A stretch of 64,000 bases of DNA from Sipunculus nudus (Eukaryota > Annelida > Sipuncula > Golfingiida > Sipunculidae): positions 73,074,643 through 73,138,642 of the forward strand of contig CM049307.1 in NCBI GenBank assembly GCA_026874595.1, given 5' to 3'. Position numbers and translations under genes: made by a program. Shown piece after piece: positions 5,883-59,265 of this stretch (position 1 is the first letter of the stretch; each line of letters begins with the position of its first letter). The notes beneath the pieces were generated by a model. The model ran no database searches, was not told the origin of the DNA, and saw only the letters and a program-made list of their open reading frames with translations.

Positions 5883-5910
<28 letters not shown>
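5883..5910. repeat. (AT)n microsatellite, left of ribozyme
   Basis: About 14 AT units end directly at the first base of the hammerhead-like domain. Confidence 0.95.
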
Positions 5911-5914
<4 letters not shown>

Positions 5915-5982
5915 TAACAACATTCACCTGATGATCGGGTCGCATCCCGTGAAACAGCTAGACTGTAGTGAATTTACAGTGT
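5911..5982 (+). ncRNA. type I hammerhead ribozyme candidate
   Basis: The conserved core boxes are present in order: CTGATGA at 5928-5934, GAAA at 5951-5954, and T5966-A5967 as the cleavage-site dinucleotide. Stem I is ATTCAC (5922-5927) with GTGAAT (5968-5973), then an AACAAC/TTAC internal loop, then ACACT (5911-5915) with AGTGT (5978-5982). Stem II is CGGG (5936-5939) with CCCG (5946-5949) and a 6-base loop. Stem III is ACAG (5954-5957) with CTGT (5963-5966) and a 5-base loop. The stem I internal loop sits where natural hammerheads make their loop-loop contact. Predicted cleavage is after A5967. Deviations are a U-U opposition at 10.1/11.1 (T5935/T5950), where G-C is usual, and A rather than C at position 17. 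Metazoan hammerheads are known in Penelope-like elements and retrozymes; activity here is unproven. Confidence 0.75.
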
Positions 5983-5997
5983 TGTTTTTCTTCAGAG

Positions 5998-5999
<2 letters not shown>

Positions 6000-6056
<57 letters not shown>
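6000..6056. repeat. (TA)n microsatellite, right of ribozyme
   Basis: About 28 TA units begin at the end of the 90-bp segment that carries the hammerhead domain. Confidence 0.95.
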
Positions 6057-10445: not shown

Positions 10446-11429
10446 GTGAGTTTGCTTAAACAAACAAATAATAATAAACACTTTTTTTTCGGATTATAAA
10501 ATAAAGAAAATTTGAAAAACATTTTGTAATTCCATGATTAAATAGAACACTCAGCTAATATAAAACCCTATGGTAATAATACATTTACATTAATGCAATA
10601 ACGACATGTTTACGTTTAAAAATAACATTTCAGTGAAACAGCTGGAATGACTTCCCGTCATTCAATGTGCTGGTAATTTTTTGTTTGAATTATAATCATA
10701 ATAAAGGGAGGTATACATGTTACACTTGTATGTGTCCAATTATTCACACTTTCCATTCACTTGGCTTGAACAGGGTCACATATGCTTGATTGTTATCGCC
10801 TTCTAATTTACATATGTTTCTCATTGACTATGTTTACATACACATGTCCGTGCATGCCTGTGCCCCAGTCGTGTTTTTCCATATCAGTGATTCTGATATA
10901 GAGTTGTTTCATGCCAGTAATTAATTAAAACAAAAAATCAAGCACTCGAAAAAAAAACAAGAAATATTCTGTCATCTACTGCGTATAATGAAATTTAAAT
11001 ATATATATATATATTTTCAATTGATACAAAGAGGAGATTAAACATTGATAAAGAACTCACACTCTTTCTCCTGGTTGCATGTCATAAGGGACCAGATTAT
11101 GTAAATTAAGGTACATGGCATTTTTAAACCATATGTCGTGCCCTATATGTGAAAATGGTATATCCTTATTTGTCTTTACATAAAATCCAATCTAAACCAT
11201 CATTTCATTTTTATTTCAATTTATTATCCTATTAGAATACGACGCGACTTAATTATATTTACACTGATTTACCGAAAAAACGGATTTACTGACATTATTT
11301 ATTATGAAGGCGTATACATGTATAGTTGTATGTTCATGTAGGCTCATATTTCAGTTCTTTATTTCTTATTATATAAACAGACCTATATTGAGGCTTTTAT
11401 TAAGTTTATATGAACACGATATTACATTA

Positions 11430-13250
11430 TGTAGGCCTACACGGTATTATGTTCACGATTTTTTTTCACTATGTAGGCCTGTACGGTTTTATTATCACAA
11501 ATCTTCCCTATGCAGGCGTATATACGGTTTTATGTTCACAATCCTTCATCATGTAGGCCTATACAATTTCTTGTTCACGATTCTTCACCATGCATGTAGG
11601 CCTATACGGTTTAATGATTACGATTCTTCACCATGTACGCCTATACGGTTATATGACCACGATTCTTCACCATGTAGGCCTGTACGGTTTTATAACCACG
11701 ATTTTTCACCATGTAGGCCTGTACGGTTTTATAACCACGATTTTTCACCATGATGGCCTATACGGTTTTATAACCACGATTTTTCACCATGTAGGCCTGT
11801 ACGGTTTTATAACCACGATTCTTCACCATGTAGGCTTATACGGTTTTATGACCACGATTCTTCACCATGTAGGCCTGTACGGTTTTATAATTACGATTCT
11901 TCACCATGTAGGCCTGTACGGTTTTATAACCACGATTCTTCACCATGTAGGCATGTACGGTTTTATGATAACGATTCTTCACCATGTACGCCTATACGGT
12001 TGTATAACCAAGATTCTTCACCATGTAGGCCTGTACGGTTTTATAATTACGATTCTTCACCATGTAGGCCTGTACGGTTTTATAACCACGATTCTTCACC
12101 ATGTAGGCATGTACGGTTTTATGACCATGATTCTTTACCATTAGGCCTGTAGGATTTTATAATTACCATTCTTCACCATTAGCCTGTACGGTTTTATAAC
12201 CACGATTCTTCACCATGTAGGCAAGTACGGTTTTATGACCACGATTCTTCACCTTGTAGGCCTGTACGGTTTTATAACCACGATTCTTCACCATGTAGGC
12301 ATGTACTGGTTTATGACCACGATTCTTCACCATGTAGGCATGTACGGGTTTATTACCACGATTCCTAATCATGTAGGCCTGTACGGTTTTATGACCACGA
12401 TTCTTCACCATGTGGGCCTGTACGGTTTTATAACCACGATTCTTCACCATGTAGGCATGTACGGTTTTATGACCATGATTCTTTACCATTAGGCCTGTAG
12501 GATTTTATAATTACCATTCTTCACCATTAGCCTGTACGGTTTTATAACCACGATTCTTCACCATGTAGGCAAGTACGGTTTTATGACCACGATTCTTCAC
12601 CTTGTAGGCCTGTACGGTTTTATAACCACGATTCTTCACCATGTAGGCATGTACTGGTTTATGACCACGATTCTTCACCATTTAGGCATGTACGGGTTTA
12701 TTACCACGATTCCTAATCATGTAGGCCTGTACGGTTTTATGACCACGATTCTTCACCATGTGGGCCTGTACGGTTTTATAACCACGATTCTTCACCATGT
12801 AGGCATGTACTGGTTTATGACCACGATTCTTCACCATGTAGGCCTGTACGATTTTATGATTACGATTCTTCACCATGTAGGCCTGTACGGTTTTATAATT
12901 ACGATTCTTCACCATGTAGACCTGTACGGTTGTTTAACCACGATTCTTCACCATGTAGACCTGTACGATTTTATGATTACAATTCTTCACCATGTACGCC
13001 TATATACGGTTTTATAACCACGATTCTTCACCATGTGGGCCTGTACGGTGTAATGACCACGATTCTTCACCATTAGGCCTGTACGGTTTTATGATTACGA
13101 TTCTTCACCATGTAGGCATGTACGGTTTTATGATAACGATTCCTCGCCATTTTTTTGTAGGTCTACATATACAGTTCTAAGATTACAATTCTTCATCATT
13201 TAGTCGTATACGGTTTCATGTTGACGATTCTTCATCATGAAGGCCTGTGC
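11430..13250. repeat. 39-bp minisatellite (about 46 units)
   Basis: The unit is ACCATGTAGGCCTGTACGGT followed by TTTATAACCACGATTCTTC. Because 39 is a multiple of 3, several frames stay open for hundreds of bases and translate as a 13-residue repeat of the form HHVGLYGFITTIL on plus, or KNRGHKTVQAYMV on minus. These are repeat artefacts: no signal, splice or family evidence supports expression. A 348-bp block (about 9 units) is duplicated, marked by GACCATGATTCTTTACCATT at 12123 and 12471. Early units (11430-11600) are more diverged. Confidence 0.9.
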
Positions 13251-34049: not shown

Positions 34050-34730
34050 GTCGCCATATTGAACCGCTGGCGAGAGCAATATTGCGGAGGTGTTCTCATA
34101 TCACCCCAGCATATCCTAACTGCAGCCCACTGCGTCCAGAAAAATGGCCGGAAACGCACGTTACGAGTACGGATCGGAGAACACGACCTGTTGTCGCCGG
34201 AAGGATCAGAAACTGATTACTCGGTGTCGAAGTATTATGTACACTACAATTACAATCTGGACACTATTGATAGCGACATAGCTGTTCTCAAACTTGTCAC
34301 CCCTGTTAGAACAGGACCTTATGTCAACTACGCATGTCTGCCTAACAGTAACGAGTCACTTCCGCCGAAGACGATGTGTTACATTATGGGATGGGGCAAA
34401 ACAAAAGAATCAAGATTCCAGGGAGCTTCTACTTTACGACAGGCAGCAGTACCGCTGGTCTCCGACGGCAACTGTCAAAGCGCTTTTCAGTACGACATAA
34501 CAGAAACTCAAATGTGCGCAGGGTACAAGCGCGGTGGTGTTGACGCATGCGCGGGGGATTCTGGCGGGCCTCTTATGTGCCGTGTGCAAACACTTGGGGA
34601 CACGCCACGCTGGATTGTATATGGCGTCACAAGTTTTGGAGAGGGATGTGGTGACAAGGGAAAATATGGCATTTATACTAAAGTGGCGAAGTTTTCAGAC
34701 TGGATAAAGCAAAAACTAGCTGGAGATTAG
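34050..34730 (+). CDS. protease exon 4: trypsin-like S1 catalytic domain
   Basis: It encodes residues 244-469 and a TAG stop. The catalytic triad is intact: His270 in LTAAHC, Asp319 in DSDIAVLKL and Ser414 in GDSGGP. Asp408 six residues before the serine (DACAGDS) predicts cleavage after Arg or Lys. Cysteines form the standard pairs 255-271, 353-420, 385-399 and 410-443, with Cys339 free to pair with Cys218 of the propeptide. Residue 225 in chymotrypsin numbering is Tyr (GKYGIYTKV), not Pro; in vertebrate clotting and complement enzymes Tyr225 goes with Na+ activation. The whole second half of the enzyme is one exon, unlike multi-exon vertebrate trypsins. Confidence 0.95.
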   Translation, partial: VAILNRWREQYCGGVLISPQHILTAAHCVQKNGRKRTLRVRIGEHDLLSPEGSETDYSVSKYYVHYNYNLDTIDSDIAVLKLVTPVRTGPYVNYACLPNSNESLPPKTMCYIMGWGKTKESRFQGASTLRQAAVPLVSDGNCQSAFQYDITETQMCAGYKRGGVDACAGDSGGPLMCRVQTLGDTPRWIVYGVTSFGEGCGDKGKYGIYTKVAKFSDWIKQKLAGD

Positions 34731-43109: not shown

Positions 43110-43899
43110 CTGAAGCACACACCAAGGTATGTTAATATAACGGAGATCAGTTTTTAAATATGATTTTCGTTCATTATCTGAAATACGATTAAGATAATAA
43201 TACAAGCTTGATGTATAAAAAGGGAAAGAAAACTATTATTGATGTAAATTTCCATGTCATTCTTGGTCTAAAATCCACAAAAGAATTAATTTGATGATTC
43301 ATTATTTTAGATATTCCCTGAGATTGTGCAGCTCTAGTCTGGCTCGACAGTCACTAAAAGTATGCTACCACAATTTACAAAGACACTGTTCTTCGTCCAA
43401 TTATTAATGAAATACATTTCATAGTAAGTTCACAAGTGGTCAATAATACAAAAAGCCTATGGGAACAATCTCCTGCCGTCAGACTAGCCAAATTTATCAT
43501 TAAATAAATTAAGTTTTCTTAACCTCATTAAATAAGAATGAATGGATGCGAATCATGAAAATATTGGAAAAATGTCATTTTGCGCCAATTTCACTATGTT
43601 TTGACTGAAATAAGCACTTGTATAACCTATTTGGTTTATACATGTATTTATAATAAGCGGATTTTCGTTCAGTGCTTTCACTATGTATTTCAATCAAATT
43701 AAGAAATTTTTCCTTAAACAACATAGATAATTTAAATAAACCATGTTATAGTAATTTAATAACGATAGAGGCTCATCTACGGTAATAATTGAGACACAAT
43801 CCGGGGGGGGGGGGGGGAGAGAAAAAACAGTGTTGTATAACCTGCTAACACAAGGGGAATAATGTATGACGATTATTTACTTCATATATATATATATAC
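43110..43899 (-). other. synaptotagmin intron 1
   Basis: A 790-bp phase-0 intron from GTATAT to GTGCTTCAG on the minus strand. It holds a G-rich run at 43803-43816 and is otherwise featureless. Confidence 0.8.
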
Positions 43900-44760
43900 C
43901 TCCTTTATCAGGTCAAACCAGATCTCGTCCGTATTCTCGTGTTCCTCGACAAGTTGGTCTCTGTGGGCCAGGGGTAGTGTAATGGATCCCATGACAACGG
44001 GCCGCGAGAAGCGGTCATAGTCACACACACTCAGTGTTAATACTTTATGATCTATAGCTTCCCTTGGTATTGGGAAAGCAAAACTTTCTTCAAACACCGG
44101 GTTCCTTGTCGCACGACATACTTGCGTCATACGATGTTCCACGACATTTTCGTAGCGATTGTCATGGAGACTTATTCGTACAAACACATCTGCGGTTTCC
44201 TTGAGACTGTGAGGTTTTAAATAAGCAGCTCGGAGTATGGCCAGATTGAGGAATTGACTCTCAGAATCGTATTGTATCCCGAGTGCTATTTTTCCAACGT
44301 CGGTTATCCCAGGAATGGAAGACTTTTTCCGGTACATTTTCGGATCAAAACTGGTTCCAAGTTGTGATATATTTGTTATTTTTCCTGTAGTTTTGGTACA
44401 TAAGTAACAATCGTCTGCTGAAGCACATCTGCTTGTCACTGAAGACGTTTTCCCCACGGTGGGAGGAATTACAAAATCTAAATGCACACTTGGTTGGATG
44501 ACTGCAGGTTTTGGGATTTTCCGTATTGGCGTCCAGGATATATTCTTAGTGCGATCCAACAACACAGGGCGTATCCACTGGTACCACACACCAAAATTAC
44601 TGACGTCAGGTGTTGAGCTGGTGTGCGGGTGAAGTTTTGCTAATTTCATCGGTCGACAGATATATTTCCGAATTAGAAACATAATACATATGGCAAGAAA
44701 CAGAGCTAATATAATCAAAACGGTAAGGATTATGGCAGGCCGAGAAAAATTTTCCGACAT
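43900..44760 (-). CDS. synaptotagmin exon 1: membrane segment, linker and C2A
   Basis: It encodes residues 1-287. An NFS sequon (Asn4) precedes the hydrophobic segment 9-30; Cys25 and Cys35 could be palmitoylated. C2A (about 155-285) shows GIQYDSESQFLNLAIL, TRNPVFEESF and CDYDRF. Of the five calcium aspartates of Syt1 C2A, Asp191, Asp247 and Asp249 are kept, the first is lost (LKPHSLKE) and the last is Val255. That suggests weak or no calcium binding, as proposed for Syt15. ATG 44760 is chosen because the membrane segment follows at once, as in the family. The donor GAG|GTATAT is followed by a (TA)n run. Confidence 0.88.
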
Positions 44761-54149: not shown

Positions 54150-57030
54150 TTTCTTTTACTCTCTATTACCATTTACTTTTTAACCCTGACAATAGCCAAC
54201 TTCTCGTTTATATATTAATTATGGCCGTCAAATTTTCTGCACTCTAATCGACGCCATACCTAGTCTAACTCCAGGAGTTTGGTTGTGAAGTTTTAGAGTT
54301 GAACGAAGGACAACGGTTACATTATTTCTTTCCAGCTGTCACTTCACAACAGGTACTGTCAACAATAACAACTACAGACGAAAGAGTAAAATGTATATTG
54401 CGTATTACAAACGCATAATGGCAGTTTAAATAAATATAATGACAGTTTATTACGAATAAGTGTGAATGAAAGATACCCGTTGTGGATGAAGAGGATCCGG
54501 CCAATACGCCAAAACGCTTTCGTCAATAAAGCGGAAAACGGAGCATGCAGGTGACCTACCACTGAGCACGTGCCCTGCGAGCTAAAAAACTGCTGTAACA
54601 ACTGGTCACGGACCAGTCTCCGCCAGGCACTAGATATTCTTGTTTTACGGTATCCATTAATGACCTAAGCTTTGGGGTAGTATGCCTTTGCCTTTATCAA
54701 CGTCACAACGGGGAAATCAGGATGTGAGCACACTAGCACGGTTGATGCAAGGGCTGCATCCCTGACATGCGAATAATGTTCATCGATCACCCACTATCAA
54801 TATGTATCATACACATTTCGGTTCCTGTCGTTAAAAGACTGTTACTATTATCTCAACATGCATAACACTTTGTTAGGGATCGCTGCTTCAGATGCCTGGT
54901 CCATGAATTGGTTAGCGCATTGCATCGAACCCATATAGAAATTCTTGAGTTACCAGGCTTTATAAAACCTGTTAAATTAGAATTTTGTGCAAAATTAAAA
55001 AAAAAATTATCGAAGAGAAAATTGTTAAAAAGTTTACTAATTACCCCAAGAACACTGTAAACCCAATTTTCAAAAGGTGTCAGGGTTGACCTATGCTGCA
55101 GCAGGTAAGATTGTTTTGGTGTATCGGAATTTAAGCGGGTGATTTTTCCCCTGGGGCATCTCACTAAGCACGTACTCGCGATTATAGTACATACTCTGCA
55201 TATACACACAGCAAACACAAAAAGACCCACTGCAAATTGATTAAAACAAATTTGTTCTTATATCACAGCGTCTTAGAATAACTTGGTAAACCAGTCGTCT
55301 CGAATAATCATAACAACACGCCTGACGGAAGATTCGCTGTGCCTCGGACCATAGGCGCTTGATTTGCTATTAGTGTAGATTTCGGTAAAATTTGTTACTT
55401 TTCTGGGTCATTTCCTTATAACTGTTACTTATCTGACATTTTTCCTAATGTTTTTTACACTATATGGCCCATCTCTTCCTTCATTACCTAACTTTTTAGA
55501 TAGGCAGGCAAGAAGCCCCCGTCATTAGGTCCGACAGCCATAGCAACCGAGGACGCGCTTTCAGATGGTGACACTGTTGACGTAACAAAGGTTCAGCCAA
55601 TCACGCATGTACTTAAAGTTTAGCCCGATACATATGTGCCAGTCTGTAAGTCTGATCATAACCTTGCCAAAAAAAAAAAGAAAGTAGGGGGGCTGATCTC
55701 GGGTGTCAGAACAATTAGCTTTGGCTTGTTGACAGTTTATGATACTATATCCGGATTTAATTGGTTTATGGCCATTGACTATACAAATCACGTCACATGA
55801 GCTGGTTAGCATCACTTAATGTCACAGCGTGTCCGGGAGACGGTCAGCCGCAAACCACAAAACACGTGTAAATATCAAATGCCAGGAAATATGACACATT
55901 CCGGCATAGTTATCGTATTAGACGACCCCGATCAAGTTACGATTTAGTCACCGATATGACATTCATGTATTTGTATCATTTAACTGACCTTGTGTGCCAG
56001 GATAATCAATCTAGTTGTTTTGGTGTCGTGTTTCACTCAGACATGAGAGATCTGACTTCACATTTTTTTTCAACAAATACAAAATACAAATACCGATGAA
56101 AGCAAGCAGAATGTTTGAACATGATTCGCAACAAGTTGATGAAACAATGCCTTTAAAGGTACTCCAGTGCTTACTCATGAAACAAAGGTATGAAAATGTT
56201 ACAGGTCAGTTTCGGGATATGACATAGCGTTAAAATGCATTGAATACATTACATCCAGATTATTTCCTATCTCACAACAAATTAGATTCGTCTATATGCT
56301 TTTTCTTGTCTCTGTACCCATCGATGTCTTTTCAATATTGCTCCATGCATGCAGTCTGTCCTTTATACCCCTGGTGATCACTCGTCCGTTTTTCAAACGT
56401 CCGTGATCATGTTTCCCTCTGACATAAGACAGTCCATCGAGACGTCAGAGTGCCATGCTCAGTAACGACGAGAAACTCAATGTAAAGCATGACGAGGACA
56501 CAAAAAATTTCAGCATTTTGACAACGGCTTATTGCCCACAGTTACTCTGCCACTTAAAATGAAAATGAAAAAGACAAGTCGTTCGATATGTTTGTGTACT
56601 TTCTGAGAACACCTAACATGTGCGAGAACAATTGCATTGTAATATGGCATATTGGTAAATCTGCCTGCATGTTTGTTGAATTTCTGTCCACATGAATGCA
56701 AACATGGCTCGTATGGGTTTCTGGACAATGGCCAACTTGTGGCGACACAGGAGATGACTTAATTGTTACCACATAGATGGATTTACACTTTAGTTTGTCA
56801 GGTCACATGTATTCTTTTGTGTGAGTTCATAACTCGTAGCCTAATGGTAAGATCACGGGCGGTTTACCACAATATCGATGCAATATGATGGATTGCCGTT
56901 GTAGTGAATTCCCCCGTATGATTTGTGTCACGAATCCATAAGTCTTACCAGTCCAATATGCCTGCTCAGTATTCTGTAATCGCTAGTTATAAAATTATCG
57001 TGCGTCTATTCTTTGCAACTGTCCGTTATG
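54150..57030. other. gene-free DNA
   Basis: Several frames of 60-125 codons occur on the minus strand (54322-54601, 54853-55230, 55561-55815 and 56510-56772), but none shows a known domain, a splice-supported end or biased codon use that I can judge by eye. Confidence 0.45.
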
Positions 57031-57039
57031 TTATCTTGC

Positions 57040-58110
57040 GTCTTTTGTTCACATATCTGTGTCAGTCGTGCGTCTGTTCTTCACGTCTCTGTGTCAGTCG
57101 TGCCGCTGTTCTCAAGGCCTCTCTGTCAGTCGTGCGTCTGTTCTTCACGTCTCTGTGTCAGTCTTGCGTCTGTTCTCCAATCCTCTGTGACAGTCGTGCG
57201 CCCGTCTTCAAGTCTCTGTGTCAGTCGTGCGTCTGTTCTTCACGTCTCTGTGTCAGTCATGCGTCTGTTCTTCACGTCTCTGTGTCAGTCTTGCGTCTGT
57301 TCTCCAATCCTCTGTGACAGTCGTGCCTCTGTTCTTCATGCCTCTGTGTTAGTCGTGCGTCTGTTCTTCACGCCTCTGTGTCAGTCGTGCGTCTCTTCTT
57401 CATGCCTCTCTGTCATTCGCGCGTCTCTTCTTCACGCCTCTGCGTCAGTCGTGCGTCCCTTCTTCACGCTTCTGTGTCAGTCGTGCGTCTGTTCTTCACG
57501 CCTCTGTGTCAGTCTTGCATCTGTTCTCCGAGCCTCTGTTTCAGTCGTGCGTCTGTTCTTCACGCCTCTGTGTCAGTCGTGCGTCTTTTCTTCACGTCTC
57601 TGTGTCAGTCTTGCGTCTGTTCTTCACGTTTCTGTGTCAGTCGTGCGTCTGTTCTTCACGTCTCTGTGTCAGTCGTGCGTCTGTTCTTCACGTCTCTGTG
57701 TCAGTCGTGCGTCTGTTCTTCACGTCTCTGTGTCAGTCTTGCGTCTGTTCTTCACGTCTCTGTGTCAGTTGTGCCTCTGTTCTTCACGCCTCTGTGTCAG
57801 TCGTGCGTCTGTTCTTCACGCCTCTGTGTCAGTCGTGCGTCTGTTCTTCACGCCTCTGTGTCAGTCTTGCGTCTGTTCTTCACGTTTCTGTGTCAGTCGT
57901 GCGTCTGTTCTTCACGTCTCTGTGTCAGTCGTGCGTCTGTTCTTCACGTCTCTGTGTCAGTCGTGCGTCTGTTCTTCACGTCTCTGTGTCAGTCTTGCGT
58001 CTGTTCTTCACGTCTCTGTGTCAGTTGTGCCTCTGTTCTTCACGCCTCTGTGTCAGTCGTGCGTCTGTTCTTCACGCCTCTGTGCCAGTCGTGCGTCTCT
58101 TCTTACTGAC
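57040..58110. repeat. 32-bp satellite (about 33 units) with 256-bp higher order
   Basis: The unit is CTGTGTCAGTCGTGCGTCTG followed by TTCTTCACGTCT. Because 32 is not a multiple of 3, each frame cycles through all phases with a 96-bp period, and all three plus frames stay open, giving frames of up to 390 codons that read SVVRLFFTSLCQSCVCSSRL-like text. These are artefacts of a stop-free unit. A distinctive TTCACGTTTCTG variant recurs at 57625 and 57881, a 256-bp (8-unit) higher-order duplication. Confidence 0.9.
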
Positions 58111-58189
58111 ATTCATATAACTCCAAGCCAAGTGCAGATTTCTTTTTTCTTAGCTGATGACCAGTTTCAAAATGAGATCAAATGAACGA

Positions 58190-59265
58190 ATAACTTGAAT
58201 GAATGTCAGATTAGAACTTAATTCCAAAGTTAATAATCTGTACCTTTATATAGAACATAAGTGAGGCTGTTGTAGTTCAGTGTCAGGGAGAATAAACTAA
58301 GTACATGTGAAGTAAATACTTACTGTTCTACCAGAAGTAAAAAAAAAACTTCAGAGTCAGTCCAGTAAATAAAGAATAATTAGGTATGTTCCTATAAATC
58401 ATCGTGTTACAATGCTAAACTTTCTGTACAAGGGTCAATATAAATATTATTCTTAGATAGACTCACCTCAGAGGTGGATGTAAAGTACAGGGGCTGTCCT
58501 CTCGTTCGTTAAAGGGTCTGATCACGAATAACACGCCCCGCCGTACACTCAAGTACAGTACCAAATACAGTACAGTCAGAGCGACACGTGCGGCTGTGTC
58601 ATCTCAGTTTTGTGTGGGCATCTATGGTTTTAGGGGACATAATACGCTGGTACTGGGCGTGGGAGTGGGTGGGTACTTTTGTGTGTGTGTGGAGGGGGGG
58701 GGCGATTATAATTGATTTAACGTTTTAATGTGTGCAGTCACCAGCTGAGAAATACAGCGTTTTACTAAAAGTGTCCTTTAATTATTAAAAATAATATTCG
58801 ACCTGACGTCCAGGATTTTGCATTGGCTACAGACTGCTTCATACTACAAGACATACTGTCTTATTATTTCACAATGAAAAATGTCCAAGTAAACTTAAAA
58901 TTAGGGAGCCATAGAATTCCCCCATCATCAAATAAATCGACTCCAAAGAATACAGAATCATTGTAGATTTTACGCTTTACAAAATAATTTATTATTATTA
59001 TTAGTCACGAAAGGCCCACGTGGACAGACCGACGGACAGAATATGCAAATAACATTAACATCAGTTAAAGACTTCACAAGCAGTGTAGTATACACACCAG
59101 AGACGAGCATGTTAAGCTGGTAAGGCTGTATAAATGCTGTTGACTGACTGGGGTCCTCGCTCTCCTTTTTGGACACTGAATCAAGAATAATTATGTAGCC
59201 CAGTTTACTACAAAACATCTGAAAACCAAACTAGGAATAACTCTGACCATTTAATTTTCCCTTAT
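58190..59265. other. gene-free DNA
   Basis: Mixed-composition DNA with a G-rich patch at 58690-58702. Nothing else is recognised. Confidence 0.5.

Follow-up and report, generated by a model that had tools for sequence, protein, structure and literature searches.

A hammerhead ribozyme fold in Sipunculus nudus as a probable ribozyme-only copy of an abundant Penelope-like element

Is the hammerhead-like sequence that lies between two TA microsatellites in the genome of Sipunculus nudus a true ribozyme fold, and what placed it there? The window (the whole stretch of DNA that was analysed, 64,000 nucleotides) is C2:73074643-73138642 of the 1.43-Gb host genome, and an initial annotation had pointed to a self-cleaving hammerhead ribozyme in it. 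The sequence evidence confirms that the type I hammerhead fold at 5911-5982 is real, with self-cleavage predicted (Table 1). We consider it highly likely that 5914-5999 is a ribozyme-only terminal-repeat copy of an abundant, apparently recently active Penelope-like element (PLE), made by the mechanism set out below. This explanation builds on the family to which the copy belongs, a unit of about 2.92 kb with an open frame of about 700 aa in several copies, sharp copy boundaries, and (TA)n flanks.

Table 1 Features at and around the hammerhead fold (window coordinates)
Feature	Position	Strand	Basis or remark
(TA)n microsatellite, 5' flank	5884..5911	.	TA run
Solo terminal repeat (ribozyme-only copy) of Penelope-like element	5914..5999	+	blastn of L031 unit
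Type I hammerhead-ribozyme fold	5916..5986	+	core boxes and three helices; descriptor scan
Outer stem I, AACAAC/GTTGTT	5916-5921/5981-5986	+	7-nt bulge, 3' side only
Inner stem I, ATTCAC/GTGAAT	5922-5927/5968-5973	+	
Core box CTGATGA (C3-A9)	5928..5934	+	letters read directly
Unpaired 10.1/11.1 positions	U5935, U5950	+	flank stem II
Stem II, CGGG/CCCG, with 6-nt loop II, TCGCAT	5936..5949	+	letters read directly
GGTCG, DPE-like (fits RGWYV)	5938..5942	+	+28 to +32 from the initiator-like A; stem II/loop II
Core box GAAA (G12-A15.1)	5951..5954	+	letters read directly
Stem III, ACAG/CTGT, with 5-nt loop	5954-5957/5963-5966 (whole 5954..5966)	+	4 nt above family length
Predicted competing hairpin CTGTA/TACAG, buries cleavage site	5963..5979	+	minimum-free-energy folds
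A17, predicted cleavage 3' of this base	5967	+	place in fold
3' tail TTCTTCAGAGTT, putative reverse-transcription start, then TA repeats	5988..5999	+	
(TA)n microsatellite, 3' flank	5999..6055	.	TA run

The fold has the traits that define a type I hammerhead: both core boxes in order, H17 (not G) following U16.1, and three helices with an open stem I. The initial annotation had placed the core boxes and the cleavage dinucleotide in the same order with a cut after 5967, and the present analysis agrees. It had also given the helices as 6+5, 4, and 4 bp. All three do pair, but stem I is 6+6, its outer strand running to 5986, beyond the proposed end at 5982. The 4-bp stem III that it had counted comes from a private 4-nt insertion: stem III in the family copies read is ACA/TGT, 3 bp with a 3-nt loop, an extended stem III (with the pattern used) occurs at nine places genome-wide, and the window version occurs once, only here. 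G10.1-C11.1 is the usual hammerhead pair, outside the core; it is absent in the window copy, which has U-U instead.

A descriptor composed after the motif had been seen (core boxes, stem II of four pairs with a free closing mismatch, stem III of at least three, stem I of five, H17 not G) finds this fold as its one match on both strands of the window and has no match in 62,000,000 bases of first-order Markov sequence. The CTGATGA...GAAA boxes alone, with three window matches against 1.17 expected, are weak evidence. A chance look-alike would account for the outcome of an Rfam search, a check that the initial annotation had proposed. The window scores below threshold, with no hammerhead match at the gathering score nor at E<=10, and Rfam likewise reports no hammerhead match in another family copy or in a possible diverged relative (L126), an above-threshold score being a detection rule rather than a trait defining hammerheads. 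A look-alike would also fit the energetics, in that the stability of the stretch is unremarkable given its composition (z -1.29) and that the lowest-energy fold of the window copy (-17.4 kcal/mol) is not the hammerhead pairing (-14.0 kcal/mol). However, the empty random sequence stands beside 1,716 exact genomic matches to the 30-nt core (890 + 826; reversed control, 0), which leaves chance hardly any credence, as the initial annotation had judged. L126 may add a relative, a point limited by its 2-bp stem I and by the pattern for other hammerheads of similar shape, which gives 51 matches (reversed control, 7), with point variants of the window family making up most of those that can be recognised.

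To describe the family independently of the core, copies were chosen by their tail (40 of the first 41 places on C2; hereafter the core-blind sample). Thirty-six of the 40 reach stem I, and both core boxes are intact in 32 of these 36. The pairing is kept at related loci, an outcome that the initial annotation had named as a check. U-U at 10.1/11.1 is present in 35 of the 36 copies; at position 17, 31 copies have U and 5 have A. Exact 22-mers genome-wide define an A17 subfamily (435 + 13) and a commoner U17 form (1,336 + 450). Because both U-U and A17 recur through the family, neither is a mark of decay, which the initial annotation had offered as one cause of the two. Changed letters in the core-blind sample amount to 5/360 in the core, 6/288 in stem II, 0/216 in loop II, 2/432 in inner stem I, and 2/216 in stem III; selection on the ribozyme was considered from these substitution rates and set aside, the divergence being too small to tell. 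As a separate observation, L126 (C5:9218500-9220400; site C5:9219437) is a possible diverged hammerhead that keeps both core boxes and stem III and has a different but paired stem II (GCGGA/TCTGC), G10.1-C11.1, A17, and a similar tail; its stem I has only 2 bp, and GGACG lies inside its stem II.

In a blastn comparison, one L031 unit matches the window at 5914-6002 with 91% identity, and the second ribozyme of that unit matches 5914-5956; the rest of the window gives no further DNA match to the L031 unit, and three protein pieces compared by tblastn match nowhere in it. The terminal repeat is about 85 nt long, essentially the ribozyme. For a larger sample, homology was extended both ways from 99 of the first 100 core places listed, all on C1. 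The 5' end lies exactly 17 nt before C3 in 20 of the 99 copies and within -12 to -22 in 40. The 3' end lies exactly +41 past the core in 46, that is, after ...GAGTTATA (equivalent to ...TTCAGAGTTATA, ending TTATA). By class, 24 copies are ribozyme-only with tail, 26 have body and tail, 19 have body on both sides, 12 have a junction and body, and 18 are of other kinds. Exact tails genome-wide run into (TA)n in 815 cases and into element body in 557.

The (TA)n association is found on both sides of the copies. A TA run of at least 16 lies within 60 nt downstream of 42 of 56 tail-ended copies, compared with 2.4% of window positions, and a run of at least 10 lies in the 30 nt upstream of 10 of 24 ribozyme-only copies, compared with 2.3% of window positions. 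With a loose pattern, inverted ribozyme pieces are found upstream of the 5' end in 8 of the 24 ribozyme-only copies (6 clear, 2 a GTTAG stub) and in 7 of the 12 junction-body copies. The window copy has its 5' end at -14, TA on both sides, and neither initiator nor ORF, and is probably an inert remnant. Two apparent end classes in the 99-copy sample were discarded: 5' extents of around 103 nt run up to a poly-C tract, where they stop, and probably do not mark true ends, and a second exact-match peak at 27 (18/99, beside 18 at 17) is read as a body sequence variant. (TA)n itself is common in the window, since 18 runs of at least 20 nt occur in its 64 kb, and only the pair flanking the ribozyme adjoins an element match.

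On C1, where neighbouring cores are arranged directly or head to head, they recur at intervals of ~2.87-2.93 kb, the spacing of the ~2.92-kb unit. Frames of 700 aa are open in two units of L031 and one of L032, and one L029 unit has 690 aa; in a second L029 unit the frame is interrupted, leaving 215 and 455 aa, and broken copies occur at L010. The ORF opens 157 nt downstream of the ribozyme match. In a protein search of the genome, all 150 candidates scored, among 3,133, match, with many open frames near 700 aa and arrays of matches on C12 and C17. The C17 array spans about 52 unit lengths, in which at least 42 units are listed, and has a 38,029-bp (13-unit) higher-order period, seen in 10 pairs among the 42 units listed. 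The arrays at L030/L031 and C17:42718759-42871515 are long tandem arrays of a coding PLE-like unit and resemble a megasatellite. L009 was dropped as a candidate 4.17-kb unit between two ribozymes; it is a 4.17-kb tandem duplication carrying a UDPGT-like gene, with a ribozyme repeat in each copy.

The ORF scores below the cut-off against Pfam RVT_1 (E 0.0036) and far below the cut-offs of NCBIfam reverse transcriptase (RT) models (E 0.00093 and 0.0035), and it carries a YRDD box. Its C-terminal part contains IVYKA...HYIG...R...H, which, read by eye, we take to be a GIY-YIG motif; a Pfam profile search and a PDB sequence search give no GIY-YIG endonuclease match in the ORF. Single-sequence fold models of two ORF pieces are unusable (pLDDT 39.6 and 32.3), and a viral_contigs scan with the C-terminal part finds no relative. 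Profile support is weak for the RT and absent for the endonuclease; the PLE assignment is carried by organisation. Tandem and partial-tandem copies with pseudo-LTRs and inverted 5' pieces, minimal hammerheads in the terminal repeats, and AT-rich insertion sites, all of which characterise PLEs, are present. The initial annotation had recognised a type I hammerhead of the animal-retroelement kind and named PLEs and retrozymes as hosts; the kind is borne out, and of the two hosts the evidence points to a PLE rather than a retrozyme.

Other origins would leave a similar footprint. Recombination between the two ribozyme repeats of a former full-length insertion would yield a solo pseudo-LTR with the same boundaries, and recombination and/or deletion has been suggested as the origin of several solo pLTRs of a rotifer (PMC3846280, available in part). 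However, ribozyme-only copies make up 24 of the 99 sampled, 8 of these 24 are preceded by an inverted ribozyme piece or stub, and the 5' ends of this class are spread between -12 and -22 (the window copy, -14), so that we regard recombination as an unlikely source of the window copy. The tandem arrays could instead be built by rolling reverse transcription of ribozyme-made RNA circles, in keeping with the single ribozyme per tandem unit in the arrays read. Yet the copies begin 5' of the ribozyme rather than at the cut, although circles could restore that stretch, and the 38,029-bp period suggests that the C17 array arose by unequal exchange or segmental duplication; we think the circular route improbable.

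Non-LTR retrozymes, small non-autonomous tandem repeats expressed as ribozyme-made RNA circles, also bring type I hammerheads into animal genomes and coexist there with PLEs (PMC7229834, available in part), and a type I hammerhead in many copies would suit them. In contrast to metazoan retrozymes, which are small non-coding tandem repeats of 150-450 bp (about 170-400 nt in the available text of the same source), the repeating unit here is ~2.92 kb and coding, and no same-strand pair of cores lies within 1 kb among 100 places listed of 1,716. A retrozyme origin therefore has very little to recommend it. The preferred reading remains a ribozyme-only copy of a PLE.

Where would the RNA of this element begin? 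The initiator consensus is TCAKTY, and the DPE consensus is RGWYV. In 42 of 48 body-flanked copies, the A at the -17 boundary belongs to an initiator-like TCATTC. One 2,924-nt unit contains four TCAKTY sites, and only the one at -17 has RGWYV at +28. The DPE-like motif is present in 99 of 99 sampled copies by construction, because the core that contains it was selected for, and both initiator and DPE are short motifs. The usual position of a DPE is +28 to +32 (PMC4748587, available in part). From the motifs and the copy ends, we infer that the element RNA starts at the initiator-like A 17 nt upstream of the core. The ~85-nt stretch may be the promoter of the element and also its copying start. 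Among the titles and abstracts listed from the open-licence literature, none describes a promoter inside a PLE hammerhead.

Whether cleavage is used can be judged from the 5' ends. Copies made from RNA that had been cut first would start at GTGAATT. The corresponding pattern (U-type only, with the four upstream letters all changed) has five matches genome-wide; two that were read are a deletion and an inverted junction, and a third has the same string as the first. Of the 40 core-blind copies, 4 begin within the ribozyme or beyond it, one of them (L166) 1 nt past the cut. Neither the pattern matches read nor the 40 core-blind copies contain an excess of copies starting at the cleavage site. 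Because the 5' ends lie upstream of the ribozyme and not at the cut, the templates of those copies appear to have been uncut at the 5' ribozyme, and most of the copies seen would derive from such RNA.

The competing hairpin is predicted to be more stable than the hammerhead fold in both subfamilies (A-type, -18.2 vs -10.6 kcal/mol; U-type, -13.8 vs -5.9 kcal/mol), in folds that leave out tertiary contacts, dimers, and protein help. The modelling suggests that the ribozyme is weak as a monomer, since the hairpin that buries the cut is favoured. The subfamilies differ in the fifth pair of the hairpin, one having A-U and the other U-A, while U/U is the third common state and A/A is rare; the genome-wide counts for position 17 and its partner are U/A 1336, A/U 435, U/U 450, and A/A 13. 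The two positions thus show a suggestive covariation, which we keep as a lead only because the counts are copies and perhaps represent only two events.

These results can be assembled into a mechanism. With RNA starting at the -17 A, each element RNA would open with a ribozyme. The element RT would prime at UUAUA just 3' of a ribozyme, on nicked (TA)n DNA. Reverse transcription from the first ribozyme, running off the 5' end of the RNA, would give an ~85-nt ribozyme-only copy like that in the window, and reverse transcription from a later ribozyme would give full or tandem copies. The inverted ribozyme pieces would fit extension from both DNA strands, or self-priming.

A more ambitious version of this mechanism is possible, and we put it forward tentatively. 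All cis functions of the element would reside in one ~85-nt module: an initiator/DPE promoter, with the DPE in stem II; the ribozyme; a switch hairpin that hides the cut; and a UUAUA RT start that pairs with nicked (TA)n. RT from the first module would produce the ribozyme-only copies, cleavage at the 5' ribozyme would be unused for insertion, and the ribozyme may be kept for binding of the RNA by the RT or as promoter letters. By analogy, we infer a promoter-plus-hammerhead-plus-RT-start module like Pr77 of the trypanosome element L1Tc. In Pr77/L1TcRz, one 77-nt 5' module acts as an internal DPE promoter and also as a self-cleaving ribozyme (PMC4748587, available in part). The L1Tc ribozyme is HDV-like and its promoter has been tested, whereas here a hammerhead lies in a PLE-like element and the promoter is proposed from motifs and copy ends.

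Hammerheads in PLEs, their minimal form, and their position in pLTRs are known (PMC6155905, PMC7229834, PMC6431247; available in part), as are inverted ribozyme pieces upstream of the 5' end, for which self-priming has been proposed (PMC3846280, available in part). Like PAc/Poseidon of Anolis and the Penelope families of a bdelloid rotifer, the element carries one ORF flanked by repeats, occurs in tandem and in inverted, head-to-head copies, and has a minimal hammerhead in the terminal repeat, an AT-rich target, and a putative RT start downstream of the hammerhead (PMC11167929; PMC3846280 and PMC6155905, both available in part). Unlike those PLEs, the element has a repeat of just ~85 nt that consists almost entirely of ribozyme, U-U at 10.1/11.1, and an ORF whose start lies beyond the ribozyme match rather than within it. 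A PLE protein studied in purified form initiates RT within its RNA, cuts both DNA strands and extends them, and prefers AT-rich DNA (PMC11167929). The start used by PAc is not homologous to the cut DNA, whereas the putative start here, UUAUA, resembles its (TA)n target. In rotifer terminons and telomere-attached PLEs, as here, the hammerhead is the 3'-terminal fold, and immediately after it comes a short stretch able to pair with the target repeats (PMC6431247, available in part); in contrast to terminons, the target here is (TA)n inside chromosomes and not telomere repeats, and the element seems, by eye, to have retained an endonuclease-like C-terminus.

Features that seem to be new are a terminal repeat made up almost wholly of ribozyme, the large class of ribozyme-only copies, a tail that matches the targeted (TA)n, and the overlap with a promoter proposed above. 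The reason why PLEs keep hammerhead ribozymes appears open, since the studied protein inserted without hammerhead cleavage in vitro (PMC11167929). Here, over a thousand natural copies carry ends that record the template used by the reverse transcriptase. The sampled ends point to uncut templates, to an RNA start just before the ribozyme, and to a ribozyme overlapping a possible promoter, and they make the question of why PLEs keep ribozymes directly testable.

Elsewhere in the window, an ORF at 34059-34730 encodes a trypsin-like serine protease (Pfam Trypsin, E 6.4e-65), and an ORF on the minus strand at 43882-44760 has a C2 domain (Pfam, E 1e-15) and, at its N-terminus, a stretch that looks hydrophobic by eye. 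Minisatellites of 39 nt and 32 nt, with long open repeat frames, lie at about 11393-13000 and 56970-58240, respectively.
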